64,000 nt of DNA, from positions 3,017,001 to 3,081,000 of the forward strand of contig CM049320.1 of NCBI GenBank assembly GCA_026874595.1, given 5' to 3'. The stretch comes from Sipunculus nudus (taxonomy: Eukaryota > Annelida > Sipuncula > Golfingiida > Sipunculidae). A program made the position numbers and the translations under genes. This document shows positions 5,190 to 61,120 of the stretch, in pieces (position 1 is the first letter of the stretch; the number at the start of each line of letters is the position of its first letter). Below the pieces are notes generated by a model, which saw only the letters and a program-made list of their open reading frames with translations, did no database searches and had not been told where the DNA came from.

Positions 5190-5345
5190 ACAGTAAAAAT
5201 GCAGGTGGCGCCACTGGTTTTCGGGAACTGACAAAACTAGTCATGGCCAATATGCAAGGCAAGATTCATGACAATACATGAAATAATTACATATTCAGAT
5301 ACTGGAGGTTTTGTATCAAACTTTTAATTATTCTCTGGCGTGCTT
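5190..5345 (-). repeat. Isolated fragment of the type A unit with GGTGGCGCCAC
   Basis: Matches 54388-54530 in the same orientation: caggtggcg, aactgacaaaactag/aactaatgaaac, catggccaatat, and tattcagatactggag. It abuts the tandem array that ends near 5075, which suggests the two repeats travelled together. Confidence 0.55.
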
Positions 5346-6740
5346 ACAAGCCTTATAGCTTGAAGGATATAGGTTACAGTTTACTAGAAAAACAACGTTT
5401 TCAATAAATTTTAATGAATTAATATGGCAGGGTGGATAATGGGTTGAAGGAAATGAGGGGGGGGGGGGGTCAGGATGCGGGTGCAGGCATTGGAGGAGGC
5501 ATGCGCTCTGTGAGTGCTTTTTAATTAATTATTAATTTTTGGGCAAGTGAAAAGTAATGTGATATCGTCAAATCATGTTATCAAGATTAGGTTATTTCTT
5601 CGGGTTACAGTTATTTTCAGGGTTACTTTTCAATCCCGCAGTCGTTTTCTTCCATACATCTCTCACAGTGATTTTCACAACCAGGATTAAGACAAACAAG
5701 AAACGTCATACATTTTATACTTTATCTCAATTGAATTTGTCGAATAACATACAACAGTAATACAGACAAACAAGTATGCGAGATGTTGTGCATACATGTC
5801 CAGCTCTAAATGAAAAAAAAAACAGTAATATTTATTTATGAGTAAAATTTTGATTTCACAGTTTAGTCAAATAGGCATTCCGAAACATGTCACCTTGTGT
5901 AAGTCGGCCTGTTTTATTCTTTCTCATCTCACACCTCTGACCCACAAAGTGAGTTGTAAAATCAATTCAACAATTTAATCATTTGTAAAAAGAAATTGAA
6001 TGCATGTCGTTTAAAGACAGATATTTGTATAAAGATGATGGAAGTAATTAAGATGTCGCGGGCCCGGCCCGACGGTTTTACCCGGCAGACTAGGACATTC
6101 TGCTGCTATAACCATGTACGATTAATCTTATGTTCTTAGGTTTGTCAGGATGGCCTTATTAAAGTTAACCCAAAAGAAATATTATTTCCTAAGGTATATT
6201 GGTATTTTAGGGGGATGCATTATAGAATGCTGGGCTTAAATACCTTTCATTAAAATTGGGAATTATTAAATCGCTCTCACATACATGCTCACACATCATA
6301 TACTGGTGTTCGCACAATAATAAAGAAATCCAAAGTAAGTTTGAATATTGTTAGAAAAACTATATACACATTCTCCAGAAAAAGGCGGATCCAGCAAATG
6401 GCTGAAACATGCATATTCATATTTACATCTAATTTTATCCAGGTTACCAATAGTTAAAGGGGCACTAAAATACTCTAAATAAATAACAGTCAGCTGACTA
6501 ATGGATAATTAAAACCTGACTGTAATGAATTTACTAGCCCGCTAATCGATCTGTTTTCATCTGAGTACAACTATGCACATATATAGAAGTGTACAGTGAC
6601 ACTACAGTAATAAAGTAATTATTTTTATGTGCAATACCAACATGGCTATTAAGTCTGATATCCCATCAGTACCTCGGTTCCAATTTATAATATTAATAGT
6701 CAACAGCTTATACCGTTTGGGCTAATTCTCCGACCTACAC
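5346..6740. other. No gene seen
   Basis: AT-rich, with a G13 run at 5457-5469 and no recognisable coding or repeat structure. Confidence 0.5.
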
Positions 6741-7025
6741 CTTTTAGCACAACTTTCTTGGCCACAGGTGGCATAACTTAACTTTACTGGCCACAACTAC
6801 CTTTCTGGTCACAGCTGGCACAACTACTTTACTGGCCACAATTACTTTTCTGGTCACAGGTGGCATGACTGGTGGCACAACTACTTTACTGGCCACAATT
6901 ACTTCCCGGGTCACAGGCTGTGGCACACTTTGGGTCACAAGCCGTGGCACAACCTGGGTCACAGGCTGTGCCACAACTTTCTGGGTCACAGGGTGTGACC
7001 CAACTCCCTGGGTCACTGTGGCCAT
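6741..7025. repeat. GGTCACAGG/GGCACAAC minisatellite
   Basis: Units of roughly 20-24 bp built from ggtcacagg, tggcacaactac and tttactggccacaa repeat across about 280 bp. Both strands stay open (minus strand repeats VTRKVIVASKVV), a result of the repeat. More dispersed ggtcac/gtggcc words continue to about 7270. Confidence 0.65.
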
Positions 7026-8252
7026 ATCTAGGATATTAATTAGATTTTTGTAATATGAAAACTACACTAGTCAAAGGACCAAAGCCCTTCCAGAATATCT
7101 ATTCCCATTCATTTAATGCCAGAATAGTCAGGCCCAGGGTGTTACACCTAAGTGGTTTACGTCAGGAGCTGACGGGACCAAAGTAGCCTGCGCTTGGTGT
7201 CGCCTCCTTTTATAGGGTCAGGCCTGTGACCAAAACTGGTCACATACCACGTGATCCTGTGGCCAAAAAAGAGGTCGCGTACTATATTGTTTGAAACTTA
7301 AAGAAAGCTATATATTATACTATTAACTAGTGATAGCCTGTTATAACTAAGTATTTACTATTATAAATAAGAAACGTGACAGCATTTAAGCAGCCAATCA
7401 GAGAACGCATGGGTAAGCCCGTATTACTACGCCGCAAGTAGTTTCTAAATGTTGTCAAACAAACGCCGGTCAGCTGATCTTGCAACATGGTTTTCCCAGG
7501 GATTAAACGGCTATTTATAGTGCATGACACATATCATATTACCAAAAGAAATAATCTATGAGGTCTGTTTAATGCCTGATCGTTAAGGTAAGACCAAAAG
7601 AACAATATTTTCCCGTGTTATTATACTGGATCTCTCAATATCGCTCGGGCCGCTCGAGCTGTGGAAATACCATGTGCTTACATGAATTCATGCTGCCGAT
7701 CCACACATTCCTATGTTATACTCATCGGACGTGGTTGTATTATGATAAAGCAAGAATTTATTACACTTTAGAATAATTATGATTATATATAGGATCCCTA
7801 ATGATCACAATCATAAACGTTACAGCGCGTACAAGTTACCGTAAAAGACAACAATGCCAATGCTGTCAGTGACAGTTCTTTAACATTCGCCGTCACTGTC
7901 ACTGTAAACATGTACTTGTGATTAACTGTGTTATCAATACAATTAGTGATGACACGATTTCTAATAGCTGTGCCAATAAAACAGCAAAAATGCTCTGATT
8001 AACACATATACTGTAACCAGTTCTAGTTATACCTATTAACTTCCTAAATATTATATTAATCATTAGGTTAACTCTAGGAACGGTTTCAAAAACCATGACA
8101 CTGACTTAGAATGTATTTTTCTTAAAGTTATATATTTACATATACACGTATTCGATGACTTTAAACTTTCCCTATATGGAATGTTTCAACATTTTTCTGA
8201 CTTGAAATTTTGATACGCCAAAATTCATAATATATTTAAAGACGTGAACAGT

Positions 8253-8525
8253 CCAGGGACGGATAAACCCAATTTTCCAAATAAAATTCCGGGAAATAGA
8301 ACAATACATGCTTAATCTGAATGCCAAAATAAAGATAAAGACTATCGAAAATTGCAGTATTTTAGTTTAAACGCCTAAATTTCCAAACTGTTATTCACGA
8401 TCAGAGGGGGGCACGAGAAGCTTCCCTCTTAAAGTATCCCTATCTGCACTTTGTGACCTCACTATATGCTCTTTCCCCACCTCCCCCACCACCTCACATA
8501 TTCTCATTCCTGTGTCCGCCCCTGA
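8253..8525. mobile_element. Possible small hAT-like remnant
   Basis: The left end CAGGGACGGATAAACC and the reverse complement of the right end, CAGGGGCGGACACAGG, resemble each other and hAT CAGGG termini. I could not find a clean 8-bp target duplication, so the boundaries are uncertain. The interior is non-coding. Confidence 0.3.
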
Positions 8526-8602
8526 ACAAACTGCGCGATTAAATATTGTAAAGCTGTCGATATGTTATCCACGAACATGGCATATGTTTAAACAATGCAG
8601 TA

Positions 8603-8605
<3 letters not shown>

Positions 8606-8655
<50 letters not shown>

Positions 8656-8656
8656 A
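8606..8656. repeat. (TA)n microsatellite
   Basis: About 50 bp of TA repeats with one interruption (ttta), in the 3' flank of the lectin gene. Confidence 0.9.
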
Positions 8657-8889
8657 GTTCACAATATCGTATATTATGATAAACCGACATTTATCGTGTA
8701 CATCGCGTATATTTCTTACAAACAATATAAGTACAATAGAGATTAACACCATGCACAAATCAATATTATAAAGTATAATAACAACATCGCAAATATAAAA
8801 ACAACAAATGTGTGACATAATATACAGACCTCCCAACGGAGAAAGAGTACTGTGCAGCCTTTCACTGAAACAAGCAAATATTGGTTTTG

Positions 8890-8895
8890 TTTATT
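8890..8895 (-). terminator. Candidate polyadenylation signal of the lectin gene
   Basis: AATAAA reads on the minus strand about 465 nt beyond the stop codon. No closer canonical hexamer was found, so the 3' UTR may run through the SINE-like repeat at 8,990-9,115. The GC-poor context is permissive but the site is unproven. Confidence 0.35.
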
Positions 8896-8989
8896 TCGCT
8901 TCAGTTCCAATCTTTTTTACTAAGTAATATATAACTTCATTTAGGGGGTTCATAAAGTTATTGACAGAGAGGAATTATATATATATGGA

Positions 8990-9115
8990 AAGGGTATACA
9001 CAGAAAAGTGGTTCACTGCCAGTGGGATTCGAACCCACGATCTTCCGATTTCCGCCACGGCTGCCTTAGAATTCTTGGCCAGTTCTCCCTCCTGCATGCA
9101 AAAGTCGCCGTGCCG
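8990..9115 (-). mobile_element. tRNA-derived SINE-like repeat
   Basis: On the minus strand an A-box-like TGGCCAAGAATTCTAAGG (9081-9064) is followed by a box-B GGGTTCGAATCCCAC (9038-9024). Together they look like a Leu/Ser-type tRNA head. The sequences that would form an acceptor stem do not pair, so it is a tRNA-derived repeat and not a tRNA gene. It lies between the lectin stop codon and the candidate polyadenylation signal. Confidence 0.55.
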
Positions 9116-14949: not shown

Positions 14950-17900
14950 TGATTAAAGTAATATTTGCTCAATTTTCAACACTTTTAAGATAATTCCTAA
15001 TGGTAATATGGATAATTATTCATTATGGCTATTGAAGTTAGCAATGTACTAAATTTTCTTATTATGAGATGTGCAAATGGGGGAGTATTGAGGTTAATAT
15101 GAAGGAACAAAAAATAGAAACGGAAATATGATCTCGAAATTGTTATGTACAAAAGTACGTTTTAGTTATTTCCCTAAAAAGTGAGCGGGACGAATGATAT
15201 TTTGTCCCCACTTTAAAGCTGAAGGGACCATGAAAATTAAACATGATTTTTCAGATCGAATATAAAAGAAATGTAAGAATAGGGGTTGCAACGGGATTAA
15301 ACAATATGTTTTAATATTCAGTAGTTTATTCAGTAAATGAAGTTAAGGAAAAGGGTTTGGAAAATGTTTCTGTCCATATACTACGTATCTTACGTATCTT
15401 CGTTTTAAGCCATTTATCAAACGACAAATTGGACTCATCCTTAGAAATGATAAAGTATCCATCCCAAAAAAGAATAATACGGCCTATAGAGCTTTTGGCT
15501 TTAGTTTATTTTTTTAAGAAAAAAAAATATATGCATGTTTAGACAACATAAAGATGTTTTAATCAGTTGTTTTTATTAACTGGTCTTTTCATTTATTAAA
15601 TATCCATCTTAAATGCAGAGCAAATTAGATATGTTGTTTATTAAAACAAAGTAAGAGGCATTTTATCCTCAGAGCTTTTATATATAGCAAATGATATACA
15701 AAGGAAAATTGAGCGTGTCGTCAATACGTATCGGGTATCGACTTGAGTCTATCGCAATAAAATTGAACCTGAATAGGCAGAACGATACCCAGCCCTAGCT
15801 ACGACGGTACAAGGTTCGAAAAGCGGTAATACAGACGATATTTTTATTAGACCTCGGATCTAGAATAAAATATCTTCATTGGATAAAAAGCAATTAGACT
15901 TTTTTGCATACTCGTTAGTGATGATCGTTACTACACATTTATTTTTTTTTAACCAAACCGATACGCTAACAATTTTTTTTTCATATCGAGCATATAAAAT
16001 ATATAAGATGAGCAAACATGATTTTTTTAGGTGTGTAAGTGAAAAGGAAGTGGTCGTCAGGATAAGTGGCTAAGACGGCCACTCGATTTGATCCAGACGT
16101 ACATTAGATACTGAAAAATGTAAATTTATTATGAAAAACAGTATTCCATTGATAAAATTTATATATATAATATAAAACAAAATTGCAACCGTGCAATACA
16201 TCTTCGGACAAACCCCAAATAACAGGTGGAACATAACCTACGTAGAAGATAAAAGTATTTACAAGGAAATAAGGGTGGTGAATGCGGGTGCGGAAAGAAA
16301 GAATGCGGGCACAGGTGTGAACAACGACTACGGATGGCGGACGAGGAATGACGTTAGCGGGTGCGGGTGGCAAAAAATAATGTTAAGTTTGAACGCAGAT
16401 TTATACCGGTATACACGTGTTCAGTTTTTCAAGAGTCTGTTTATATACACATCCGTATGTGGATACGTGAGTGTATAAACAATCTGCGTCACAATTTATG
16501 CGGTCCGGGCACTGATACAGGTATACATATACGACTGTGCCACTAACAATATCAAATCTGTTTTCCCGCTTGTATTTATGATTCTAAATTTATAACACTA
16601 TTTTTGTCAGAAAATAATTGAAATTGATAAAACATTTTTTTTATAAATTTTATATTTGATTAATGTCTTGTGGTGAAGCATGATGTTAAGTTTGAAATTG
16701 AAAAATAAAACATATTTAAGTATGTAATCTAGTTCTTCTGTTACGTTTTGTTTTCTAAACCACAGGAGGAGGGAACTCCTTGTCATACCCGAAACATCGG
16801 GTGCATATTGTTCTCGAGCTAGCTCCATTCATTATGTTCACCTAAACTTTCAAATAACTCCAAAGCCTATCAGGTCAAAATTTATGTAAAAATCAGAAAT
16901 TGTTTTATGTTCTTTAATTTAGGAATATTACATATTTACTCCTTACGTTATGCTTTAAAAAATATCATACTCGGTGTTTTTCGCAAAATTTACCAAATAT
17001 AATTATTTGTTTCTTGGGTGCACACAGGTACAATCGGGAACAAAGGTTAACATGAATATCATGCACACTGACTGCAATCAATGTAAATAAACAAAAACAG
17101 AAGAAAGAGTTCAGAAATATCACAAGTATGCCGCTCATAGATCTCTTTGAAATGTTTTATCAGTACTGTTAACTGCTGGTTTACTTACTTTTCCTCAGCT
17201 TTGGATCATTGTTTATTGTTTTCATGAGGTGAGCCACTTCTTCCGAGGTTTCTAAAGTCACCAGGTCACCATCCCGGCGCACGCAGTGGTCACGTGCATC
17301 ATCCCATCTCATAACGTCAAGCTTGAACTTATAGCACGATCTCTGTGACCTGGTGACGAGTTTGTGCCCGTATCCGTCAGGGCAAGTTTTGTCTGCGAAA
17401 GATCATTTGATACATTTAATAAACAAATAACTTACATATAATGTTAATTCATTGTTTGTTCTTCTTGATATTGTTATATATTGGAAGGATAATTTCAAAT
17501 ATTAATACATGCACAGGTAGATAGGGGCATCCCCTGCCGCACCTCCCGGCTACGAACCTAGCAATCACTGGATATTAGCACTTTGTATAAAAGCGTGCCG
17601 AATATAGGGACAAATAAGGACTTAATTATATTGTTCATTTATTTTGTACAGAGATGTATTAGATGTCATTTAAAGACTAATTTTATGTTTTTCTCTTATG
17701 TGGCACAAATTAATGTAAAATTTTACGAATTTAGTCTGTAATAAGACAATCATTCAAAATCATAAAGCTGATAATTAAGCCATGAAATATTTATTTTTTT
17801 AAGCATAACACACATTCTAAACTGCTTATAAATGCTTTATAACACATCCTTGCAGCCCTGTCTGTAAAGTTAAAGAAAACATTTCCCGATAACATAGCGG

Positions 17901-32527: not shown

Positions 32528-33428
32528 ATTAATTATGCAAATAAAGACTTCTCAACAGCAAGCAGTAAGAACGGGGAATTCGTAGCAAACGAATTAAATG
32601 ACCTGGGCTTTGATGTTTTTATCAAACGATTGATAGATAAAAGTACAACTTGTGTATATAAATAATCTCTTTTTAAGCTATCATATAGATATAAACACGA
32701 GGGGTAAGAACAAGTGCTCAACGATGTAAACATCCATTTTCATTATTTATTCTAAAATATAGGATACATCATAAAATAAAGACATAAAAACATATAAACA
32801 ACATTGAAAAAGGCAAATGAATAACTCATTATTGGATATAAATATCGAACTACCCTGTTGACTTTTTAAGATGTTACTCAGCAGCGTTCATTCTGCAACG
32901 AAGGAGTGATAGCTTAAATTTCTTTTCCATGTGTGCAGTTGCTTTATTAGTCTATTTATATATATACATTTGTAACCGAAAATAAATCTTCCATGAAATC
33001 ATACTGCTGATATGAAATATTTAGTTTACTAATTTCTTTTACCGTTTGTACAGTTTATCTTTTGAACAGCGGCAAGGAAATGTAATCTCAAAACAGATTC
33101 GGCATTGAGAATTCTAGCTGATATAAACAGCCAAATTCCTAATCCATAACACATATTAATTTTGCCGTGCAATAAACGTTCCCTGCTTATCATAAAAGTC
33201 AATGACAATGCATGTATATTCACACATTATATATATTATTATTTTTTAATTGAATTATATTATATTATCGTTAAGTCAAAATGAATAAATGGTTTATATT
33301 TCTAAGATAAAGCGAGGTGAAAAAGGCTCGTTTTTAGCTCAGCTGACTGAGAGTCATCTGAGCTATAGCGATCACTCTTTGTCCGTCGTCCGTCTGTCCG
33401 TCTGTCCGTCTGTCCGTCTGTCCGTCCG

Positions 33429-34700
33429 TTAACCAGACACAAATCGTAACCGCTGAACCTAGAACCTTGTAACTTGGGATTCTGAGAGGTCCATGAAAAA
33501 TCTCCTTGGAAACAAGAAATTAGGTCTCTGTTACCCATATCCTTCGAGCTATGGGGCCCCAAAGTACCCCCCAGAATAGTAAAAAATTTCATACAAAAAC
33601 TTCAATATCTCAATAACTACAACACTGATGGTCATGATATTTGGCATACATATTGATAATGAGATGTTCCATAAGTTCCTGCATACTGGTGGCGCCACCT
33701 GTATTTTTCGATTTTTTTACAATTTTTTCCTCGTTTAAAGATGCTGTCATCTGTTAACGTGGCACAAATCGTAACCGCTGGACCTAGAATCTTCATTCTC
33801 GACACACTGAGAAACCTATTAAAAGTCTCCGTGGAAACCATAAATTAGATATCTGTTTCCCATATCCTTCGAGCTATGGGGCCCCAAAGTACCCCCCAGA
33901 AAAGTCAAAAATTTCATACAAAAACTTCTATATCTCATTAACTACTTGACTGATGGTCATGATTTTTGGCATACATATTGATCATGAGATGTTCCATCAC
34001 TTCCTGCAGACTGGTGGCGCAACCTGAATTTTTCGATTTTTTACGAATTTAAAAATGTGAACAGCTGTTTACAGGGCACAAATCATAAAGACTGGACCTA
34101 GAATCTTCATTCTTGACACACTGAGAGGTCCATAAAAAGTCTCCATGAAAACCTGAAATAAGGTCTCTGTTACCCATATCCTTGGAGCTATGGGGGGCTC
34201 CCAATAACCCCCCAGAATAATGGAAAATTTGATAAAAACAAACTGCAACATCTCAATAACTACAACACTGATGGTCATGATTTTTGGCATACATATTGAT
34301 CAAGAGGTGTTTCATCAGTACCTGCAGACTGGTGGTGCCACCTGTATTTTTTCAAATTTCCACAATTTTTTATTCTCTATTTTTGAGACCTTTCAGGATG
34401 TAGTTATCTGTCAACAGGGTACAAATCGTAAGGACTGGACCTAGAATCTTCATTCTTGTCATGCAAGGAGGCCCATGAAAAGTGCCTGTGGAAACTTAAA
34501 ATTAGGTCTCTGTTACCCATATCCTTCAAGCTATAGGACTCCGAAGTATCCCTCAGAATAATGGACAATTTGATACAAAAGCTGAAGTATCTGAACAACT
34601 AATGGGGAGATCACCATGATTCTTTGCATGGATATTGATGTTTTTAAGTGTTTTTATTAGTTTCTGCAGACTGGTGGAGCCACCTGTATTTTTGTACCCG
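33429..34700 (+). repeat. Type A tandem units
   Basis: Four units repeat, in order: acaaatcgtaa, ggacctagaatcttcattct, gagaggtccat, ggtctctgttacccatatcc, gagctatgggg, accccccagaat, ggtcatgatttttggcatac, and a GGTGGCGCCACC-like palindrome. Divergence between units is moderate. Short open frames here are repeat products. Confidence 0.8.
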
Positions 34701-34799
34701 CCAAAACGAAGTTTTGTGGATACTATGTTTTTGACCGGGTTCCTCCGCCATTGCCGCGTTCGTTTCCAGAGAGCTCCTCTGGGACTTGATTTTATGAGC

Positions 34800-36200
34800 T
34801 TTCCAAGCTCATATCTCGGGAACCGTTTGACTGATCAGGAAATAAAATTTATACTAATGTAGCCCTTGGATAGCTCTATAACATACACAAAAAATGGTGG
34901 CGCCACCTGTAACCATGTTTGCACACTGTCCATCTGTTCATCTGGCTTTGGTTAAAATCACTCATATCTCTGCAGTGAATTGACTAATTCACCTGAAATT
35001 CGGCATGCGTATACATCCTGGATAGCTTTCTTGATTTTATGACAGGTGGCGCCACCTACATTCTCATTCACGCTGATGACATCCAAGCTCATATTTCGGG
35101 AACCGTTTGACCGATCGGGCCAAAAATTTGCATGTGTATAGATCTAACATAGCTCTTTATCATACGCTAAACTGGTGGCGCCACCTGCAACCATTTTTGC
35201 ACAGCGTCTGTCTGTTTGTTCGGCGTGCGATAATGTCACTCATATCTCGGCAGTGGTTTGACATATCTGCCTAAAATTTTGCAGTTTTATACATCCTGGA
35301 TAGCTTTCTTGATTTTATGACAGGTGGCACCACCTACATTCACGTTCACGCTGATGACATCCAAGCTCATATCTCGGGAACCGTTTGACCGATCGGGCCA
35401 AAATTTTGCATGTGTATAGATCTAACATAGCTCTTTATCATACGCAAAACTGGTGGCACCACCTGCAACCATTTTTGCACAGCGTCTGTCTGTTTGTCTG
35501 CCGTGCAATAAAGTCACTCACATCTTGGCAGTGGTTTGACATATCTGCTTAAAATTTTGCAGTTTTATACATCCTGGATAGCTTTCTTGATTGTATGACA
35601 GGTGGCGCCACCTTTATTCTAGTTTATGCTGCAGACATCCAAGCTCATATCTCGGGAACCGTTTGAACGCTTGGGCCAAAATTTTGCAAGTGTATAGATC
35701 TCACATAGGTCTTTATCATACACAAAACTGGAGGGGCCACCTGCGACAATTTTTGCACATTTTGCACAGCGTCTGTCTGTTTGTCTGCCGTGGCCTAAAA
35801 TCACTCATTTCTCTGTAGTGGTTTGACATGACTGCCTAAAATTTTGCAGGTTTATACATCCTGGATAGCTTTCTTGATTTTATGACAGGTGGCGCCACCT
35901 ACATTCTAGTTAACGCTGCACACATCCAAGCTAATATCTCAGGAACCATTTGACCGATTGGGCCAAAATTGTGCTTGTGTTCAGATCTCACATAGGTCTT
36001 TATCATACACAAAACTGCAACCATTTTTGCACAGCGTCTGTCTGTTTGTCTGCCGTGGGCTAAAATCACTCATATCCATGTAGTGGTTTGACTTTTCTGC
36101 CTAAAATTTTGCATATGTATTCAACTTGGACAGCTTTCTGGATTTGTGGTAGGTTGCACAACCTACATACACATTTAGGCTGCAGACATCCATGCTAATA
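34800..36200 (+). repeat. Type B tandem units
   Basis: Each unit holds aagctcatatctcgggaacc, gtttgaccgatcgggcc, catgtgtatagatct, a palindrome site, tttttgcacagcgtctgtct, and tacatcctggatagctttct followed by a second palindrome site. The last unit is truncated near 36190. Confidence 0.8.
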
Positions 36201-36499
36201 TGCAACCTACCTCACTCTGTTTCCCCTTGCCACTCAATCCATGCCTCACTTCACCCGTTCCACTCTGATTTTGGCAGATACACGTAGTCACTTGTCGGCT
36301 ACCCGTATTCTAGTTTTTAAAGTGTACACATTTTTTCTCTATTTTTCAGATATATAAATACAGACTAAACCTTGGCCTGTTGGTTACTCTCTTTGATGCT
36401 TCAGTTGAATGGGTATCTACCATTCTGATGATAAAATTTCCTTTTGTGAATCTCTTCCCAGTCAGCTGAGCGTCATGACCCATGGGTCACTTGTTAAAT

Positions 36500-39320
36500 T
36501 AAATACTTAATCATGCATGTTAACAAGATTTCAAAGCCTAGAGAAGCTAAAACATTGGGTAAGAAATGCTTGAGAAAGCGACGGTTGAGAGGTCGTATAT
36601 ATTTGAAAGTTTTAATGTCTGTAGTCTGTAACCAATGTTGGAAAATGTCCAACTAATAATTTAAAAATACCAAAAAATATGAAAATGGTGTATATACACG
36701 CGTTTATCCTAAACACTCCTTTAATTTTTCTGCTTCTGTTTTTCGGTTGAAAGAGTGATTTTGGTTTGACAGCAACTGAAAATAATGCATAGAAAATATT
36801 ATCTGATACAAATATGATAACAATGTTTTCAGCCGAAAAAAATATCAATTTCAAAACCAATTACCTTAACCTTGTTTAGTGACCTTGAAACTGCAGAGGA
36901 AAATTGCATTATAGATTTTATTAGACTGATGATTTTAAAATATTTAAAATGGTGTACGTTGCTGGCATTCTTCATTAAAATCGCAGGGCAGGCTATACTA
37001 CATGTATGCCAGGTGATGCTGATAGCATGATTTAAAAGTTTCTATTGTGTGGCATTCTGCACTTAATTATCAACACAAATAGTTCCCCCGGTGATACTGT
37101 ATTAAGCACATCTGGGTTAAGTTCAGAGTGTTCAGTTCAAATTAAATTAAAACCTGAGATTTTCTATTAAATTAAGACTCTTTGAAAATATATTGATTCC
37201 GATTCATTTCAAATAACTATAAATATTATATCTAAATTAAGTTCACAGTTCAAACGAAATTTGCTATCTTTAGTTTAAATGGCATTTCAGTAGTGGGTGC
37301 TGTTAAACACATTATATTACTCGGAATACACTTCACCCGAGTGGATAAATTATCTATTCAGGACTACACTATGATAAGCAGATGTTTTCAGCTGGATTCG
37401 GTATTTTTTACGTAGGTATTATCAATTAATTAACAATGTGTTAGGAGTAAGTTACAGATATTCATGTTTTCCAGACCGATTGGGCATTTGAGTACAGCTA
37501 TACTTGAGAGGTGACGCATTGAAGCATTTTATCAATTTATATTTTATGAAGAAAGTTATAATTAGCAATAAACAGGGACCCTACGACTATTCCTAATAGA
37601 AATTTATAGTTTTTTTTCAGCAAAGCAATTAGCACTTTGATGCAATTTGACAAAAAGCCCTATCTCTAGAAATTTGCCTTCTTTGCCTTCTTTCAACCAC
37701 CAACATTAATTTTCATAATTTAGGGATAATAGGAAATTATAAGTGTAAACAGGTTCAAACTGTTTCAACGGTAAACATTCATTTTTACAAAAAAATGTCC
37801 TCCAAGTTCAGGAACATTAAGGTCTACGAACTTCAAACTTGCCGTGCGTGAAAAATATCTGTCACGGCGACGTATATTCTCCGAGTTGTTGGGCGAAAAC
37901 AAAGGTTTATTCACCTGTGCGGACTCGTGCTATAAAAATACATGCTTAAGGGAAGAATAAGCAGGATGGAAGATAGTTATTACCCATGGAGCACTTTAAT
38001 TGTCGCACACGACTATTGGCGCCACCTTAGGTTTTTTTAATTCATTTGTAAACAAATTGACAGATGACAAGCATTAATTCATCCTTGAGCAGTATACAAA
38101 TCATAGCTATTAACCCCGGAAGTTCCTTATTTCTTGAAGACATATTTTGATAGGATTTCTGAATTGACCTATGTGCTGCTCGTTATATGTCAAAGTAAGG
38201 TCTTAGTACCTCAGAAACATAGAGCCGTGGCCCTTAGATATTCAAACTTTACATGTTGTGGTATATTTATTAACCAAAATAAAAATATCACTGACCTTTG
38301 TTTATGTGCTATGGCGTTTAATGTCAAATTCAGCCAAGTGTTATGGCCCATTGGCCATTAGTTCAGTTTGGGGTATCTCTGGACTTGAAAATATGTAGGC
38401 TATCAATACTGTACACATTGGGTACAAGCCCTGTATACACACCATTTGACTAAATAAGACATTGATATAGCTAGGCGGGAACTTGTATTGGTTCTCAGAA
38501 AGTCAAAATGATCCCAATGAGTATCATGATCTGCGAGTTTAATTAGAAAGGAAAGGGACACACACAAGAAACTGAAAGTTGGTAAATACTTTCACACAAA
38601 ATATTCTATGTCTTATCCTGGTTGCTTTAGGCAAGTAAAATATGTTCAAATGTTTAAAGTATGCAGCACAACATATCCTTGCTGTGATCAATAACTGACA
38701 CTATCACCTATATACAGTGAATATGTCTGATATTCTCACTGCTATACCTACACGACTACATCCATCAAATGACAATATGTATCCTCTGCTCTGGTCAACG
38801 TTCCACTTTATTTACATTCGTTTACTAAAGATATGGAATGCATTTAAATTTTTGTTAATTACTGGTACAATTACTTCCATTTGCTGATAACATGCGGCTC
38901 ACGTTTGCTTTGCTCAATTACAGTACAATCACATTCACTGACAATATGCCCCTTCTGCTCTTCTGGTTCAATTTTCAACTAGCGTTAATTAACATTATGT
39001 GGTTCAAGCTGTCCATCTGATGCTGACTCTTTATGGATGATAATAGCTAATGTGTGAATAATTATGAGGTTTTACATTCTTACTTTTTCATTTCCTAAAC
39101 GAAACGTGCCGATTTATTTGGTACAAATGGCATTGCAACCTAAATAAACTAAAGTAAAAAAATTGGAAATCACTACGAGTCGTGCAAAGATTGCTGCATA
39201 AAAATGGCAAGGAACTATCGACACTGACATTTGTCCTAAAACTAAGGTTAAATATTCAATAAATGTTGTCATAGGAACATATAGGTGGGAAAAGGTGGGA
39301 AACCGTAGGTTTCTCGGATT
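36500..39320. other. No gene seen
   Basis: AT-rich intergenic-looking sequence with a single palindrome remnant near 38.02 kb. Confidence 0.5.
38010..38060. repeat. Solitary GGCGCCACC site
   Basis: attggcgccaccttaggttttt resembles the palindrome context of the composite element but is isolated, probably a short decayed remnant. Confidence 0.3.
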
Positions 39321-40353: not shown

Positions 40354-41583
40354 AGTCTCTCATTGGTTACCTGTAATCACACCATATCATTAAATAAGGA
40401 AATACGAAAGAAATTTAACTTTAGGCGACATCTCAGTTTTGCAGATATTAACTCAGAATAAAGAGCTGGAAAAATCGAGTGAAATTAAGAGGAAGGGGCA
40501 ACATTTTTTTGTTTCGCCACATTTAAGTAAGATTTCGAAAATATAAAATATATAAATATCCTGGCGTCAAAGCTATCCAGTGATACCAATTTTGTTATCC
40601 TGAAATGAGACCAACAGCAGCTTGGAGGAAACAGTTGAACAATTTTATGCAATAAAAAAGGGCCAAGGACAAAATACATGTATGCATTTTAATGCGAAGT
40701 ATCCAGCTACTGCTTACCTGTAAAATGTTAGGAGTTCCGTCCTCATGTTGGGTCCCTCGTGAAAGAGTATGTTCATATCATAAGAACAAGCCCATATACG
40801 TATTGATTACTTTCAGGCTGACAGAGTTAATGAACTAAAGGTGCCCATCAGTCGGATCAACTTAAATTCTTATTTTCCCCCCAACAGGCTGACTTTGACG
40901 CCGAATATGAAACCTTTATTAAAATCAAATCCCAAGCAGACCTAATTAAATAAACATCTAAATACATACATCCTAATATTTGTGAAAATAACATAGGAGT
41001 TTTGTAGTATTTGTAGGGATAAACTGCTTTTAGAGCACTTTTGCAAACTGGGCTCCCGGACTACAGGTAAGATAGTAACACGGGCACGTCATATCGTTTA
41101 CCAGGCTGTAACGTGCAGGCTATCATAGCGCCCAAATTGATGCCATTTTTAGCTTTTAGTTTTAAAATGTTTTTTTATGTAATAAATCCGCATCCATCAG
41201 CTTGGTGTCGTAAGAAAGCGAGCAACTAATGTTTCATCTGTATACACACAATTTCTTGTTATGGGCACTAACAATTAATTTACCTTAACTTAAACCAGTC
41301 GGCATTTATATTCGGGGGCGGGGGGGGGGGGGGGGAGGTCTGCTCGCTTTGCTGATCTCTTTCTGACAAATACTATTTATTGTTCCTCCTCAGTGTAACA
41401 TGTCAACTATAAGCCTTTTCATTATTTGCTATCTATATTTTACTCCGAAATAGAAAGGAGCCACATGCTACATGCACGTCCGAAAGGAGTCTAGTAAAAC
41501 TTTGGGTTGTGTTATACAAAAAAGTGCCAGAATTAACCAATTGGGTCTCAAGTCAGCTCTGTTTGATGGTACAAAGGCGGCCT

Positions 41584-41870
41584 GTTAATACCAGGCCGTG
41601 TATGGCTCTGTTAAAACCAGGCGGTGAATGGCTCTGTTAAAACCAGGCAGTGAATGGCTCTGTTAAAACCAGGCGGTGAATGGCTCTGTTAATACCAGGC
41701 AGGGAATGGCTCTGTTAATACCAGGCAGTGAATGACTCTGAAAATACCATGCGGTGAGTCGCTCCGTTAAAGCAGGCGGTGATTCGCTCTACTAATACCA
41801 GGCAGTGAATGGCTTTGTTAATATCAGACGATGAATTACTCTGTTAATAGCAGGCACTGAATCGCTCTAG
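41584..41870 (+). repeat. 26-bp minisatellite, 11 units
   Basis: The unit gttaataccaggcagtgaatggctct repeats eleven times. The first six units are nearly uniform and the later ones diverge progressively (ccatgcggtgagtcg, tcagacgatgaatta, gcaggcactgaatcg), so homogenisation appears confined to the left side. Confidence 0.85.
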
Positions 41871-48162: not shown

Positions 48163-49760
48163 TTGTTAATGAGAGCTTATAATAAAAATCCAAAATATTT
48201 ACATGATAATAAGAAGTTGACTCTTACAGTAAATGCAAACAAAAAAAATTATAAAAATATAAAGTTACCTTTACTTATGGGAGTTAACTTTCAGGTTATT
48301 ACTTTAAATGTGACAGGACTTAGGAATAAAATAAAAAGAGGACCAGTGGTTTGCAAATAATTTTGGGTGGGACTTTAAATTACATGGAGATCTAAAGCAC
48401 CCTTGATTCAACGCAGACTAAATATGATATTAGTATCCACTGAATTAAATGTACAAGTTAAACATATAAAGATATTATCAGCAATTTTGACAGATCATTC
48501 GGCAGTTATATGTACTGTTGAGACTGTGTTAAAACAAGTCATGGTCCATCATATTGGAAATTTAATAATACCACATGGCCGAACGACCATGAGTATAATA
48601 TTTTAATTAGAGAAATCGTTAAAAAAGTTGGGCGACAACGATAAAGACACCATGGGTTAAATGACCTGATTTAATATTTAAAATACAAAATAATAAAAAT
48701 TACAATTAAGTATTCTAAGGAAAAACAAATGCAAGCAAGGAAGAAATTAGATATCCTTGAACAAAATGCTGCACAAGCAGAAAATAACTTATCAAATAAT
48801 ATGCCTCTTAGTCTGGTAATATGATCATTGCCAACTGGAGCATGAACAATTTTATAAAGCATATGTAGAAGGATTAAAAGTGAGATCCAGAGTCCAGTGG
48901 CACGAGGAGGTGAACGCAGTACAAAGTACTTTTTGAATATTGAAAAGAGAAATAAAATAAAATCTACAATAAGAATATTGATAATAAATGGAAAGGAAGT
49001 CCAGGAACCAGATAATATCATGAAATCATTTTAGGAATTTTATCAAGAAAAATGTAAAAGAAAAATATACGTAGAAGAGAAGGAATGTTTACAACTTTTA
49101 GACAACATAAAAGTACCGACAATACCTTAAAACGAGGAAGATCAATATGAAAGTGAAATTACTAAGGATGGAATTAAAAATGCGTTAAAAAATATGGAGA
49201 ATAACAAAACACCTGGTAATGACGGATTACCAAAAGAATTTTACATAAACTTTTTATGATGTGTTGATTGATGACCTGTTAAATTGTTTTAATCAAAGTT
49301 TTACTAAGGGGTCTCTTATAACTAGCCAAAGACCAGCAATAATAACACTATTTGAAAAACCCGGAGAAGACAATGGGAGACTTTCATCCTGGAGACCTAT
49401 CAGTTTATTGTACGTTGACTTGAAAATATTAAGCAAAGTTTTGGCAGAGAGATTACAAAAATGTTTACTGATACTGATAGATGAAGACAAAAGAGCTTTT
49501 GTGAAAGGTAGGAGAATTTCTGATACAAACTGCCTTATCAGAGATATATTAGATTTTGTTGCCTGGAAAAGAAAAGGGCTTTTATTTTCGCAATAGATTT
49601 TGCAGCAGCTTTTGATGGTATTGATCATGTATTTCTATTCACTGCTTTAAAGAAATTTGGTTTTGGGAGTACATTCCTACGGTGGATTAATGTATTGCAA
49701 AACAACGTGGAAAGCTGTGTAATGAACAATGGGTATAGCAAAGGGTATGCGTTTATGGCA
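48163..49760 (+). pseudogene. Degenerate L1-like non-LTR retrotransposon (endonuclease remnant and reverse transcriptase fragment)
   Basis: Fragments in several frames read in ORF2 order. VITLNVTGLRNKIKR (about 48295-48340) is the start of the endonuclease. VSTELNVQVKHIKI with LTDHSAVICTVE (48430-48520) is its end, so most of the endonuclease is deleted. Then RSRVQWHEE, KNMENNKTPGNDGLPKEFY (49186-49245), QRPAIITLFEKPGED, WRPISLLYVDLKILSKVLAE and FVKGRRISDTN (49499-49530) give the fingers of an L1-clade reverse transcriptase, followed by a frameshift to IDFAAAFDGIDHVF. The sequence stops resembling the family before the catalytic YxDD region. Numerous stops and frameshifts show it is dead. Confidence 0.85.
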
Positions 49761-50343
49761 GAGGTATGCACTGCGATGAACGCATCCGTTAAATGCACAG
49801 GGAATTTCACTTTATGACGTGAAATTGGGGAAGTCCTCACTTCCATTACCAAAATATGAGTTTTAAAGTTTATTGAAGGAAGCATCATCATGTGTCAACA
49901 TGCATCTTACTATATCACTGAAAAATTGCAACAATGAATGTGTTGAATAAAAAGTGACATTTAAAGCGGAAGCGAAATTAGGCATTAATCACGGGCGCCA
50001 GGTCAATTATTTTCTGGAAGGGGGTCCTATCCCACATTAATCTAATTGAAAACATAATTATTTGTTACTCAAATATTTAGCTGAAATACCATTTAGGTTT
50101 ACAGGTATACATTCTGATCTGAAAGGACAAAATAGTTACCTTTTGGCGCTTGTATGTGTTAGGTATTGCCGCATGGTTGCCGTCCGTTGATTGCATATGA
50201 AAAACGGGTGCGGTTAACGCTGGTATGTGTGACCGTGCGAAAAGATTTTAGTTGCTCACAACTCGCTTTTTTGTCAAAGACCCTGATCTCATGCAAGGCC
50301 TCGGAAACAGTACCTGTGCACTCAAGCATAGCAGTTCATGTAA

Positions 50344-52168: not shown

Positions 52169-53261
52169 CACACAAATGTATATAAAATAGCAAATTATAA
52201 ACACAATTTAAAGTTTCTCTTAGCTCCCCCTCCCCTTATGAATAAAGAAAACATTAATTTCTGCATGTGCAATGCATTATTGATTTAAGTCCAAGGGGGG
52301 CCTCCGAGAGGAAAATTTCGAGCTGGTACAAGAGACTTACCAGACGCCTTCTCAACCCCCGCTTTAGTTATATGGGTTCAATCAAGGAAATTCAATAAGA
52401 ATCTTATTGAATCTCCTTGTTTCAATCAATTTTATATTCGATTTTGATTTTAAGGCATCGGACTAAAGGGGAGGGATCCACAAGAATGTTTGATTTTTAG
52501 TATGTTTTCATGCAAATACTTTTCCGCCATTAAAACTTTCATCTCACATGCAGGCCTTATTAATACACCAGAATGCATGAAATGTATCGTGTATTTAAAT
52601 GATGAAAGTTTTTTTACTGTATATAAATAAAATATTGTCATTCAGTTGTATAATTTACGTAAGCGAAATTTTAACACACATGACTGGTTAAGCTAATTGT
52701 TATACAAATACAATAAACAAGTTAAAACAAATTTAAATTGTAACCATAACTAATGAAGCAGGCATCGTTATATTGCCTCAAAGCAAGAAAGGTACAAGTG
52801 GTACCCAGAAAAAGTATATCATTTATGCTATCTATACTAGAAACAAGAGATGTTTTAACAAAAATGAATAAACAAATTGGAACTTTAGGGGATTTAAAAT
52901 CATACCCGGGCATAAACATCAGTTTGATAGATTATTATTAATATCTGATAGATCTTAATGTACAGGCGCAGCCAAAGTTAGTGCATTCCGATTTATCAGT
53001 TTTTCCGCCTGATATTTGTAGCAGCAATGGTTTTGCTCCTCCAACGACATACACCAAAACCATAGGCGTTAGATAAACATAGCAAACGATATCAATGACT
53101 ACTGTTATTCTTTGAAAAAATATATAAGTATATACACACATCTTTCTACTCATAATGTATCAGCATCGTGTCGGCAGAAACGGAGCAAACCTACCGTTTA
53201 ACTGGTTTGTTTACTTTAAAGGACGTCCATGATGTGTGGGGATAATTTTGAATTAAAGTAG

Positions 53262-54605
53262 TGGACCATGGGCCATGACGCTCAGCTGAATTCAAGGAAT
53301 GTGTAACAATGACTGCGTGAGTGCCAAAAAAAAATCATGAATTTTGTGAAGAGTCCTTAGAATTGTCTGGTTTACGAGAAAACTCTCCAAGACGGATTGA
53401 CTTGCCAAACTTCAGTCAAAAAAATCTTGAACCATTCCTGAGATATGAGCAATTTTCCTCCAAAGCACATGTATATGGACGCCACCAGTCTCGTGTACAA
53501 GATGGAACAGGCCAAGATCTATGGACATGCTCAATTTCAGGCCAAAACGGCACACCATTCCTAAGAAAAGAGCATTAATTTATTCTACAGAAACAGGAAG
53601 GTAGGTGGTGCCACCTGTCAGGTTTTCGAGAAACTTTTCCAAGATGGATGGACATGCCAAATTTCAGACCAATACCTCGAATAATTCCTGAGATATGAGC
53701 AATTGTCACCCAAAGCAAATGTACGGATGGATGCCACAGGAAAATGACTGCAGGTAGCTGCACCAGTCTTGAGTGCAAGATGGAGGAGTCCAAGATCTAT
53801 GGATTTGGACTATTTCAACCCAATACATTGAAGAACCACAAAGGCAAACAGATGGCAAATGCACAGATGGACACTACACAAAAGTATTGTCGGTGGCGCC
53901 ACCAGTTGCAATTATGAGATAGAGAGATCCAAGATCTATGGACATGCAAACTTTCAGTATAATAGATTGAGCCACTCCTGAGATATGGGCTGTTATCTAA
54001 AAGACACCCAGATTCAAACTGCACAGTAAAGATTGCTGGTGGTACCATCTGTCTTTGTTAGGCACAACAACATAGGTGAAGGAACAACTATGCTAGGTTT
54101 CGGAAAGATCAGTCCAGGGGTCTCAGAGGAGTTCTCTTGAAACTAACGCCGAGTTTCTGTATCACATTTTTTTTATTATCCTTGGGGGGGGGGTACTTAC
54201 GAGCCCCATAGTGAGGAGGATATGGGTAACCGACAGCTGATTTCAGGATTTCAAAGAGATTTTTCATGAACCTCCCTGGATGTCAAGTGAGAAGATTTCA
54301 GGTCCAGTGGTTACGATTTGTGCCCTGTTAACAGATGACAGCTTCTTTGAAGGTATAAAAAAAGAGGAGAAAATCGTAAACATTAGAAAATACAGGTGGC
54401 GGCACTAGTTTGCAAGAACTAATGAAACACCCCATGACCAATATTCATGCAAAGAATAATGGTGATCAATGCATTAGTTATTCAGATACTAGAGCTTTTG
54501 TTCCAAATATTCCATTATTCTGGGGGGGGGGGCGACTTCGGAACCCTATAACTTGGAGAATATAGATAACAGAGACCTGATTTCAGGTTTCCAAGGAGAA
54601 AATTA
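53262..54605 (-). mobile_element. Inverted, 5'-truncated copy of the composite element
   Basis: Read on the minus strand: type A sequence (54605 to about 54100: cctgatttcaggtttcc complement, ttacgatttgtgccctgtta complement), then type B sequence (about 54060 to 53320, gctcatatctcagg words), then the right-end signature ttcagctgagcgtcatggcc (around 53270-53290). The A-then-B-then-end order matches the element at 33.3-36.5 kb. The (gtccgtctgtcc)n head is absent. Confidence 0.7.
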
Positions 54606-55082
54606 ATATATTTAAATTTAAAAAGACCAACGGAATAGACTACGGGCTCGAATCCATGCGTACTACGGCTTTCCGGGTCGTGTAGGATAACAGCAATATT
54701 ATTTTCTGCTACTTTCACCACGGATTTTTCGTAAGGTTTACTAAAAAATCTGCCTTGCGAGTATGATATAATAAAAGTTTAATAAAATTATTACACTGGC
54801 AAATCGAATTTCCGGATTTCATGGATTTATTGTGCCGACTATAGTCGACTCGGGCTCTTTTGAACCCTCCTGGTGAATAGGTATATACGTATATGTATGT
54901 TAACCCAAAAGCCAAAAAAGTTGTTTTCATTAATAAGTAATTTCTTGTTCCCTGGAATAAAATACCTGACCTGCCAATGCAGGCCCCCTAAGGTTATTTC
55001 GGTTAAAATCCGATTATAGACTGTATCTTAAACAAATATCAAATGAGATCACCTTAATTTTAAGATGTTTACCTCGTCACAC

Positions 55083-56378: not shown

Positions 56379-57414
56379 TTGTTTTTATTACGTCATATAT
56401 TTTTAAGCTGTGAAAAATATTGTTTTTTATTTCCCCTACATGAATAAAATCTAGAGCCATGTTTTTTGTCATGTTAATAACAGATACACGGGGAGGTTAC
56501 TAGATAAAATTGTTAGAGAATAAAAAACATAATAAAAAAAATGAAAATTAATTACGAATATATTATAACAACTCAACGGGAGGGGTCCTCTGGACCTGCC
56601 ACAGATTTGGAACGAAATTTCGAAAACAAAACTGTTTATGGACGGTGGGTTTACAATTTATCTGGATCACCATAATACTCTAAGGATTTATTTTGTTGTT
56701 GTCCAACGTATTCTTGACCAACGCGGTATTAGGTATTCGTCAGTCACTGGTATCCTGGCTCCGGGCAAAGTGTCAATATCCCAACGGGAAATTATGCACA
56801 CGTGTCACCTAGTTTGACCGGCTTTGTTCTCGCCGGCAGAACTGTCCTGTGATGATACCATCGAGATGGTGAACTGTGAAATACAATTCTCTCTGCTTTG
56901 GATTAATACATGCTGCTCTGGCGTTTGAGAATACTAGTAAAATATCTAAGCAATGCCCAGACAGATATTCCTGAATTTGTGTAAATAAGTGTTAAATAGA
57001 TCAAGTAGACAACAAACCAAAATTTACAGCTGCTCCTACATTTTTGGTGATTTTATGTGCATTTGTTTGTGTGTTTGTCCCATAAAAATGCATTCTTTTG
57101 AAAATGATGGCCTATTAATATGCAGTCATGGTGTAACTAATAACCATAAAAGTTAGTGCATCATCCTGCTATAAATCCGTGTCATGCAAATTTTGTAGAA
57201 TATTGGCCCAGCAGTTTGCCATTGCCATGTCACACCCATTGGTATTGGTTGGTACCCTTTTTCATTAAACTCCGACACAACGGATGGCTTTCTTAGCTAA
57301 TACTGTATACATTCTCACTAAATTTTGCACATACATCCGTTTTGATTAAAGTATTTTATTTGAGGTGGGTGGGTTTTCTTCATCTTTGACAGTTTAATGA
57401 AGGTTTTCAGTCAG

Positions 57415-57840
57415 TACTCAGCACCTATCTGACCTTTATTTCCTAAAGGTGATACCTTGGAGCTTTTTTTTAAATAACCAGAAAACGTGGATATCAGCGC
57501 ACACAGAATGCTTGCTTTGATTATATCAACATGTTTATTATATATGTAGGTTCGACAAAATAACCAAAACAAAGTCAACAAAGACACCTGGCTGCAAGTC
57601 ACATAAGCTAGATCCTTGCAAATGGCGGTTTCCAACAAGTGGCCTCTCTATACCTCAACATATATGCAACCTACCACCCTAGGTCACATGTTTTTTCCTG
57701 TTTGTCAAAATTGCTGTGTTTACAAACACGTTGTTGATAAAAAAGCTCATACATCCTGGACGGAGGTGTTATCAAAGCTTTCTATGGCCCTAATTACCTT
57801 TGATCATTAATATATATACGCAGAGGAAACCAGAAATTGC
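57415..57840. repeat. Second copy of the dispersed repeat seen at 46.5 kb
   Basis: Matches 46490-46915 in order over about 420 bp with many substitutions. It lies free of the host element that surrounds the other copy, which supports treating it as an independent repeat unit. Confidence 0.55.
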
Positions 57841-58395
57841 ATTTCCTTTTCCACCTTTAAAGCATGAGAATGTGCATCCTCCCCAGATGTATTCCCAGGT
57901 GATTTTGTAAAAGTTTTTAAAAATCTAATCTTTTTAAAATCTAACTTTGCATGAATGTCTCAGCCAATATATATGCAAAACATTCGATTTTTAATACTCT
58001 TCAAATTTGTGGCTTACATTTAGTAGAAAACTTTATTGATAAATTCACTCTTGAGAGTGTGTATAATTTAATTTGCATTTTCACTTATATTTGCACATAT
58101 ATATTAATTTCTTGAAAAAAGCATTAAGTATACTTTATGACGGACTTTGTTTTATTTTCAACTCTTATCAGTCTTTTAAGTGTGATCAGCCTGTGTACAG
58201 GCATTGTACATAATACTAGAGAAGTAAAAGTGTATTCTTCATATATGCTGTATGTTATCTCTGTGATCATGCTAAGTTTTATGTTTTGACTGGAGATTTA
58301 TGCCTAATATACACCTCTAAAATTTTGCAAATTGTATAATATTATAGAAAATGTATCCCTGCATTTCATATACCAACTGTTCTCTGCAGTTTTTA

Positions 58396-59190
58396 CTTTT
58401 AGTTCAGCTGTTTAGAAGTCATCTGAGCTATAGGTCCTTTGTCCTTTGTCCGTCCGTCCGTTAACTGGGCACGTTTTGACACTGTTGGATTAACCCCAAT
58501 TTTCCAGAAAAACCGTATTGTTACACTTCAGGATCGCCTAATATTAAAACCAGTGTTTGTTTTTCTCATATTTAGGATAAATATTCCTCTATATATTTCC
58601 TATGCACATACCAGAAATTACGTCAGAATGGTATAATTTCTTTATCTTGAATGCAGTTGTGAAAAAATCAGTAAAGATATTTACTCAATGTGACAGTTAT
58701 TGAAACTAGAGACATTTTTTAGGTAAATAACTGTATCCAATCAAGATGCAATAGTTTACCCAAAATTAGATCTGAAATTTGTCTTTTTGTCCCCGCTCCG
58801 AGGAGACATTGTTTTGGGTTAATCTGTCTGTCTGTCTTCTATCCGTCTCTCTGTCCGTCCGTCAGGTTTTTTTTCATTTCCGTGCGATAACTTTCCTAAT
58901 TTTATCGGATTTCAGTCAAATTTGGATCAGTGATTGCTCTCATGCATACCTCCGTTGCAATTGGTGTTGGAGTGTCTATCCTAAAAATATTTCTCTCCAG
59001 CTCAAAAACTAAATTCTCAAATTTTGGTCAAATTTCTTAGTGTGTTTTAGTTTTTGTGTTCGCCTGCAGATGTCTCCACATGTCATAATTGATTTTTTTT
59101 TTCATGTGCTCTCAAGATTTTCTCTACATGTCATAATTTTTGTTGCTTATCAAGCATGAAAGACGACAAGATCCCAAAGCGGTGGACATT
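58396..59190 (+). repeat. Head-type fragments with GTCCGTCC runs
   Basis: The sequence gttcagctgtttagaagtca and catctgagctatagg then gtccgtccgtccgttaac (58396-58470) parallels the left end of the composite element. A second, different head, gtccccgctccgaggagaca with tctgtctgtctgtc, starts at 58790. Neither is followed by an obvious gene. Confidence 0.5.
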
Positions 59191-59629
59191 AATTCCATGA
59201 ATTTGATTTTTTTTGTTTAATTAGATTAATAATTTCTCAAGTCTCTGTTGAAATGAAATAGAAAAAAACAATTTAAGAACATACAAACTTTAAAATGTCA
59301 AATATTACAACATAAAGAAATTTTAAGGTAATCATTTGCATAATAAAAAAAGATAATACGGAAAATACACATTTTGACATAACAATTTTTTGTCACAGAC
59401 ATCGTGTTAAAAAGTGCGTCAGTTAACCATACATTAAAGTATTCAAAGAACGATTTTCCTGAGAAACCGGTGTCTAGTGTGGTAACAGTGGAGAGCAGTA
59501 CTAACAGAAAACATAATAAATTTGAAATAATTTTAAACAAGTTATCCACAGGTATTGATGATAAACTGGAATGATTCTCACGCGGGCTCCAATGCGGCGT
59601 CCGTTTCTTGGGAAGAATCCTCAAACTCT

Positions 59630-61120
59630 TGGACCGATCTTTCTAAAATTCAGCATAACCTAACAAAGACTGGTGGCGCCACCTGCAATCCTTTTCATGC
59701 AGTGTGAATCTTTTTGTCTTAGTGACAGCCACACCCATATCCCAAGAGTGGTTAAATGATTTGCGCTGAAATTGTGTATGTTCATAGATCATGAGCACCT
59801 CCATTTTGTACTTGAGACTGGTGGCACTGTCTATAGTCTTTTTATTCGTGGCGTCCATCCATGCATTTGCATCCTAGTGGTTGGTTTAATTTATTCGGCT
59901 GAAATTGTGCATGTCTATAGATCATGGACACCTCCATCTCGTACTCATATCTGTTACTGTATTTCGGGGAATCCATCAATGCGTATGCTTTTTGTGAAAA
60001 TCACACATATCTCAGGAATGATTCAATGTATTGACCTGAAATTATACATGTTCATAGAACTTAGACACCTCCATCTCATACTCAAGTGGTGCGATCTGCA
60101 GCTGTTTTCGCGTGGCGTACATCTATTCGTTTCCTTTGGAACAGGTGGCGCCACCGTCCATTCTGTTTTTTATACCAAAATTAGTTTCTGGTTTATAATC
60201 AGCCTGCGCACTGTCTTAAATGTTCTCAGAAATATCAGTTTGTACTTTGCCTTTTGACATACACACTTTGGCATACTGACCAACGTTATTGCAAGTACGA
60301 CATTAAGCATTTTGCCAGATGCTTGACATAACCACATCTGCGGCATGATCAGGCAGATGTTAAGTCCCGTGAAGCTGCTACCGGTCGCTTGTTTCACCTC
60401 TGGATACCTATCATCATATCTGGGCTTAGTAGTTTTGCCGAAGTGAACTCATTCCGTAGCAGAGGTGCGCCTGTGCATTTCTGTTGCAATAGAATTCCGT
60501 TTTCAATTTCTTCAGCTAATGTCACTGTTAAGTGTAACTGTTACGGTCTCTTATGATATTTGCCATGCAAGGCATGCACCATCTGCCAAATAATAGTGAT
60601 ATATATCATGAAAAAAAATCACTAATCATTCACTATTAAAGTAACATTTGGTGTATACAGACAGCAATCCAAATTAAAGGATGCAAAAACACATTTGATG
60701 TAATCATAGCAGGGATCCTGCCATAAAAAGCAATATGTGGGAATAAAAAGAATCCTGTCCTGTATGTTACGAAGTAGGATCAACATAAAATGTAATACAC
60801 CTGTAACTGTCAGGTTGAAATTGTGGATGTCCTTAAGGCTCGAATCTACAAGACTTGTAGCGCCACCTACAATTGTTTTTGGGCTATATGCATCCGTGCA
60901 CATAGCTCAAGCGTCTTTTAAAGCATGTCCATACATCTTCGATGAGCTTTTCAAACACAAAACTGGTGGTTCCACCTACCATCTTTCTTTGTGTAGTGAA
61001 CATCCATGCCGGTATTTTAGGAGCGACGTTTGTGTAAATGTTTGTGTGAATAGGGAGCAACAGGGAAAATTAAACGGATATGAATGGTGGTCTAAATCCA
61101 GTCAATCTACCAGAAACATT
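59630..61120 (+). repeat. Type B-like units with palindrome sites
   Basis: Units carry gaaattgt(g)(t)atgt, catagatcatg(a/g)(g/a)cacctcc and tactcaagtggt, with palindromes at about 59671 (GGTGGCGCCACC), 59820, 60146 (GGTGGCGCCACC) and decayed forms near 60860 and 60966. A 161-residue frame (59772-60257) and a 131-residue frame (60737-61132) run through it and are repeat-derived. Confidence 0.6.

Follow-up and report, generated by a model that had tools for sequence, protein, structure and literature searches.

Introduction

Why does a 12-letter, GC-rich palindrome, GGTGGCGCCACC, recur across a stretch of AT-rich DNA in repeats that otherwise share little? The stretch in question comes from the marine worm Sipunculus nudus (contig CM049320.1, positions 3,017,001 to 3,081,000 of the forward strand) and is 64,000 nucleotides long; we refer to the whole of it as the window. 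The original prediction, drawn from the letters of the window, held that the word marks otherwise diverged repeats, that it is better preserved than its surroundings, and that it could be a protein-binding site, a recombination site or a structural element. Here we show that the 13-bp GGTGGCGCCACCT is a conserved box of a ∼140-bp tandem module, which is carried and spread genome-wide by rolling-circle elements, namely non-autonomous Helentrons (HINEs). Judging from its sequence, we find it somewhat probable that this box is a putative binding site, kept at the level of the element, for a nuclear protein with sequence specificity.

Abundance of the palindrome

Measured against shuffled expectation, as had been proposed, the word is in clear excess. 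Nine exact copies of the palindrome occur in the window, compared to none in 100 shuffles, and 22 sites match it with at most two mismatches, compared to 0.43 expected. Genome-wide (1,426,538,692 bases, or 1.43 Gb, in 153 contigs, the window included), there are 111,729 exact copies, versus 14 for the same letters reversed and uncomplemented. Modules of ∼140 bp hold the palindrome at a fixed place, and those of the window occur in both orientations. Twenty of the 22 near matches lie at places listed in the original prediction, leaving aside the one at 38015; that site, also listed, has no module around it, nor has the one at 7196, and both may be chance matches. The GC content of the window (0.36) agrees with the AT-rich setting first described.

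The palindrome is better kept than its flanks

To avoid circularity, modules were ascertained by a model restricted to the left flank (built from 12 window copies, palindrome excluded), and those with flank E-values above 1e-5 were dropped before conservation was counted. In the window, at least 8 of the 12 palindrome letters are present in 20 of 23 modules found in this way (12 of them model seeds; best match in a 42-nt stretch), compared to 211 of 5000 random stretches. Mean majority identity among window modules is 0.79 in the palindrome columns and 0.64 in the others. Data from the window by itself are insufficient to decide whether the palindrome is better kept, and the effect is weak outside E1, the complete element described below.

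A larger set of modules gives a clearer picture. Its 99 modules come from the window (20), from 20 ten-kb stretches picked by position (41) and from three loci (L068–L070) selected as palindrome-rich (38); because of that selection, the 41 modules of unchosen loci are also reported separately. Two of 101 module matches were dropped because they were cut by locus ends. CpG positions were excluded from mismatch counts, and the four incomplete boxes among the 99 were excluded from variant and dyad counts. In the stretches picked by position, at least 8 of the 12 letters are kept by 43 of the 44 modules found by flank alone, and 18 are exact. Mismatches to the consensus of the module's own group amount to 12/190, 20/369 and 27/417 for the palindrome in the three groups, compared to 376/2386, 804/4603 and 875/5305 for the flank, giving a palindrome/flank ratio of 0.36 (bootstrap 95% interval 0.24–0.49). 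For the unchosen loci, the values are 27/409 (6.6%) and 808/5075 (15.9%), respectively. Across the full set, the direction of the difference is the same in 20 of 22 three-kb bins.

The position of the best-kept block was assessed by sliding a twelve-column window along the module. Averaged over the three groups, the best six of 132 such windows overlap the palindrome; the exact register ranks second, behind the one shifted right by a single base, and its ranks within the individual groups are 11, 4 and 1. Moreover, GGTGGCGCCACCT is identical across three monomer consensuses that agree at 31% of their other columns (P = 2e-5; P = 5e-5 within E1 alone). These data bear out two parts of the prediction: repeats that have otherwise diverged have the word in common, and it has changed less than the sequence around it. 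In the per-position comparison proposed at the outset, the palindrome is the best block in the 99 modules when groups are averaged, and its advantage is weak in the window outside E1.

A HINE carries the palindrome arrays

The carrier of the palindrome arrays has the architecture of a HINE, which the original prediction did not recognise. The complete element, E1, spans 33331–36495 on the plus strand, with ends defined by genome copies that have unrelated flanks. Its 5' end (33331–33364) consists of TTTTT, a subterminal inverted repeat (subTIR) AGCTCAGCTGACT at 33336–33348, within the 11–15 bp typical of HINEs, and a nearby inverted partner at 33352–33364; folded as single-stranded DNA, this end gives z = –4.0. 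In the left part lies a (TGTCCGTC)n microsatellite of the (GTCY)n type (33380–33429). Two satellite-like tandem arrays occupy the centre. The type A array (33425–34706) is made of ∼325-bp units with one palindrome each, at 33688, 34013, 34331 and 34673. The type B array (34802–36201) is made of 278-bp units, each composed of half-units B1 and B2 with a palindrome in each, so that palindromes are spaced 149/129 bp apart; the final unit reads AGGTTGCACAACCT at 36151–36164. At the 3' end (36460–36495), a 3' subTIR (36460–36472) is followed by a short palindrome, TGACCCATGGGTCA, which ends at 36490, and CTTGTT. Aligned ends of genome copies show a T-rich insertion site with a preference for TT: TTTT stands directly upstream of the element in 14 of 15 copies (TTTTTC in the remaining one), and CTTGTT is found at 11 of 14 3' ends.

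Much of this architecture is known from other animals. Cg_HINE of the Pacific oyster is a HINE that exceptionally has two consecutive arrays (PMC7492417). It shares with E1 the subTIR and its inverted partner, a GTCY/GTCC microsatellite, a 3' subTIR with palindrome, T-rich insertion, and central repeats of 140–180 bp that sometimes form two arrays in tandem; it differs in that the available text does not mention a GC-rich palindromic box in the central repeats (PMC7492417). DINE-1 of Drosophila and mite HINEs likewise have subTIRs, a microsatellite, central repeats, a 3' palindrome and a TT preference, although their sequences are different (PMC4067079). The bivalve elements Pearl, DTC84 and MgE, compared here by description only, are HINE-like with short central arrays (PMC7492417). 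The mite HINE has an autonomous Helentron partner (PMC4067079), whereas none was linked to the elements described here among ten Helitron_like_N loci (3.4–9 kb each), which contained no module, no box at up to one mismatch and no matching end. The Helitron_like_N domain has 143 matches in the genome, some within open frames of more than 2,000 aa; frames above 2,200 aa (in L063, L064, L066 and L067, for example) belong to apparently intact autonomous Helitrons or Helentrons.

As for the box itself, the available text of two papers on HINE monomers (PMC11136912, PMC8268682) does not mention such a sequence, with figures, supplements, Repbase and most subscription papers outside this scope. In literature text at large, the exact 12-mer occurs in a chitinase paper, and four shorter pieces of it also occur elsewhere. 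The box in HINE monomers may already be in print, and the negative literature result does not show otherwise.

The kind of conservation

Changes shared by at least two modules affect 3.7% of box positions and 15.1% of flank positions, a four-fold depletion, while private changes are not depleted (2.4% versus 1.6%, P = 0.09). Among the 132 windows, the palindrome ranks second by shared changes, behind its own neighbouring register, and 127th by private ones. This pattern fits constraint on propagating lineages, with copies decaying freely once they are inserted. The central CpG accounts for 42 of 94 changes in the box, 34 of which are C-to-T or G-to-A; consensus CpGs are lost in 42 of 98 cases in the box and 140 of 252 in the flank. 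The remaining box changes fall at positions 1–5 (21) and 8–12 (31) of the 95 complete boxes, and better conservation of the right than of the left half, suggested by 21 window sites, is not clear in this larger set. Neighbouring conservation is one-sided. T13 is present in 96 of 99 modules, 33 of 39 sites have TRYA next to them on one side, and the box usually reads ACW-GGTGGCGCCACCT-RYA.

Conservation of the box suggests, without proving it, that the sequence was recognised by a protein while the elements were active. Most likely, a putative sequence-specific DNA-binding protein, either from the host germ line or part of the machinery of the element itself, would read the box as double-stranded DNA. 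Copies that retained the box intact would have propagated better, and inserted copies would then decay freely, the central CpG most, as expected if it is methylated in the germ line. A retained protein-binding site, one of the options first raised, is the best remaining idea, and on the evidence of sequence conservation we regard the site as putative.

Alternative explanations

Several observations weigh against a binding site and are considered here with the alternative that the box has no function. The ancestral monomer may merely have had the word, its GC-rich letters catching the eye, and gene conversion within arrays may have preserved the likeness. In the window, two AT-rich blocks are kept equally well (AAATTTTGCATG, 0.815; CATATCTCAGGA, 0.79), and in the nine modules outside E1 the palindrome is barely above average (0.667, compared to 0.582 for the rest and 0.815 for AAATTTTGCATG). 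Within groups 1 and 2 other windows outrank the palindrome, and 50 of the 95 complete boxes depart from the exact word. Far commoner 12-mers are found in other repeats of the genome; in a 200-kb sample GGTGGCGCCACC is about 618th among non-simple 12-mers, with 22 copies versus 179 for the top word. Two caveats concern the statistics: modules within arrays are related, so Fisher values overstate significance, and the split between private and shared changes is blurred, as repeated mutation in variable columns is scored as shared. Finally, of eight HINEs read with both ends, only two, of a 5' subfamily with GCGATCAC, bear modules and boxes, while the other six, which have similar ends and belong to a subfamily with TCGTGGT, lack both. 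It follows that the box is unnecessary for transposition and works not in end recognition but for the arrays or their spread. We nonetheless consider absence of function unlikely, since homogenisation inside one array does not give 13 identical columns between diverged consensuses, and since composition is insufficient to account for the difference: consensus G/C positions outside CpG show 50/781 mismatches in the box compared to 875/4293 in the flank.

A more specific proposal is that the repeats carry CTCF binding sites, possibly with a role as insulators or loop anchors. Some mammalian SINEs (short interspersed elements) reportedly spread CTCF sites, and in both cases a mobile element multiplies a candidate DNA-binding site; the difference is that the CTCF motif is represented here by its core half only, as a candidate by sequence. 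The core, AGRKGGCRS, is matched at 9/9 positions on one or both strands in 15 of the 22 window sites, and the base preceding AGG on the better-kept strand (the RYA side) is C or T, as the CTCF motif requires. The other half, CCASY, scores a mean of 1.66 of 5, against 1.54 by composition, and no window 14-mer reaches 13/14 of the CTCF consensus. The predicted fit to the core without the CCASY part stands, while CTCF itself is unsupported. A review describes three CTCF orthologues in molluscs and CCCTC-like motifs at boundaries of topologically associating domains in squid (PMC10658182). A guide RNA used to delete the CTCF site HS+44 of the mouse alpha-globin locus contains GCCAGTGGCGCCACCT, although the available text does not state where the guide lies relative to the CTCF motif (PMC13083895). 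Among the listed literature matches that pair Helitrons with CTCF, none is on HINEs by title. The lack of depletion of private changes argues against host use of individual copies, and overall we find CTCF sites quite unlikely.

Very unlikely, in our estimate, is a structural or recombinational role, in which the palindrome would form a hairpin in single-stranded rolling-circle intermediates, seed tandem duplication or mark exchange points. In its favour, the box is a perfect dyad, and two modules lack it exactly or nearly: a B1 half-unit at 36004–36040, where 13 bp between CTG repeats are clearly gone, the trace that hairpin-promoted slippage would leave, and a second module at 59935–59975. 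A stem-loop model for tandem repeats arising from mobile elements is cited in the available text of PMC8268682. Against it, dyad-compensated changes number 2 versus 3.7 expected under independence, with 86 broken pairs in the 95 boxes. Since dyad-restoring changes are not above chance, it is the sequence that has been kept and not base pairing. In addition, box stretches fold weakly as DNA (z of –1.5 to –1.9), and the conserved flank is one-sided.

Other copies and wider spread

Three further carriers lie in the window. E2 (53255–54613, minus strand) is a decayed HINE with a 3' end at 53255–53291, B-type modules at 54128–53365 (palindromes at 53604 and 53892) and an A-type unit (palindrome at 54395); a search for its 5' end found none. 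E3 (58393–61014, plus strand) is a decayed copy with a 5' end at 58393–58462 (match E-value 2.2e-6) and diverged B-type modules at 59578–61014, with palindromes at 59672, 60144, 60856 and 60965; no 3' end was found on searching, and we infer that the 5' end and the modules belong to one element. E4 (5169–5386, minus strand) is a single A-type unit with a palindrome at 5204, for which a search for element ends found none. CpG figures are 0.57 for E1 and 0.38 for E2 (CpG-poor), and 0.72 for both E3 (not poor) and the window.

Seventeen of the exact palindromes in the 200-kb sample (22 in all) lie beside a detected module, and one more lies beside a module just under the cut-off. Others lie in further monomer types, namely type C, with 300-bp units, and another with 326-bp spacing. 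A relationship between types C and B is still detectable (E-value 2.5e-10), so we take the further types to be diverged relatives, not independent inventions. HINEs of the TCGTGGT subfamily, named for the letters after the inverted partner, were seen at six loci (L040, L042, L043, L056, L057 and L059); they are ∼1.9–2.6 kb long and share the subTIR with the subfamily that bears the box. In the same sample (L040–L059), ACCTGCAGGTAG has 179 copies and the palindrome TACCTGCAGGTA has 132, which points to a further repeat of very high abundance that has a palindrome of its own.

Scans of viral contigs gave no matches to any of five patterns (the box with its neighbours, TTTTGCAT-gap-box, the first AT-rich box, the HINE 5' end and the two AT-rich boxes). 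In prokaryote contigs, 31 TTGCAT-gap-box stretches reached at most 15.8 bits with the module model, around a palindrome that had been selected for, and were taken as chance.

Several other features of the window were noted. On the minus strand at 4165–5032 lies a different repeat array, adjoined by GTCCGTC-like remains; its AGGTCAAAGGTCAAGGTCAC words resemble nuclear-receptor half-sites. A tandem array at 61588–62838 (period ∼133/278 bp), with GTCAGTCCGTCCGAT upstream at ∼61515, is perhaps another HINE type without the palindrome. A minisatellite at 41582–41868 has 11 copies of a 26-bp unit. RVT_1 reverse-transcriptase fragments at 49249–49817 (plus strand; E-values 8e-7 and 4e-4) mark a decayed retroelement, and a C-type lectin match at 17181–17402 (minus strand) is weak and sub-threshold. 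Rfam gave nothing at gathering score on the window, and ARAGORN found nothing there.

Implications

A putative protein that reads the box could be of several kinds. Besides the CTCF core, a pair of CACCT words of the ZEB/Snail type fits the box, and E2F-type sites (TTTGGCGC) are a further candidate. That the central CpG is the most changed position speaks mildly against a GCGC-centred (E2F-type) reader, although methylation would give the same result. It is a distinctly improbable idea that a HINE family adopted a site belonging to some architectural or zinc-finger protein of the host (the CTCF-core-like AGGTGGCGC or the CACCT pair) and spread over 100,000 copies through the genome at a phase of ∼130–150 or 300–330 bp. 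If it were true, the protein would help HINE arrays to stay open or to replicate in the germ line, and rolling-circle satellites would write part of the chromatin organisation of their host.

For a search for the binder, the box provides a defined probe of 13–19 bp (e.g. ACTGGTGGCGCCACCTGCA). HINE central repeats, certain monomers of which persist, are considered a source of satellite DNA in molluscs and insects. A box that is kept between diverged monomers, and in which only shared changes are depleted, points to something that mattered during the spread of the elements.

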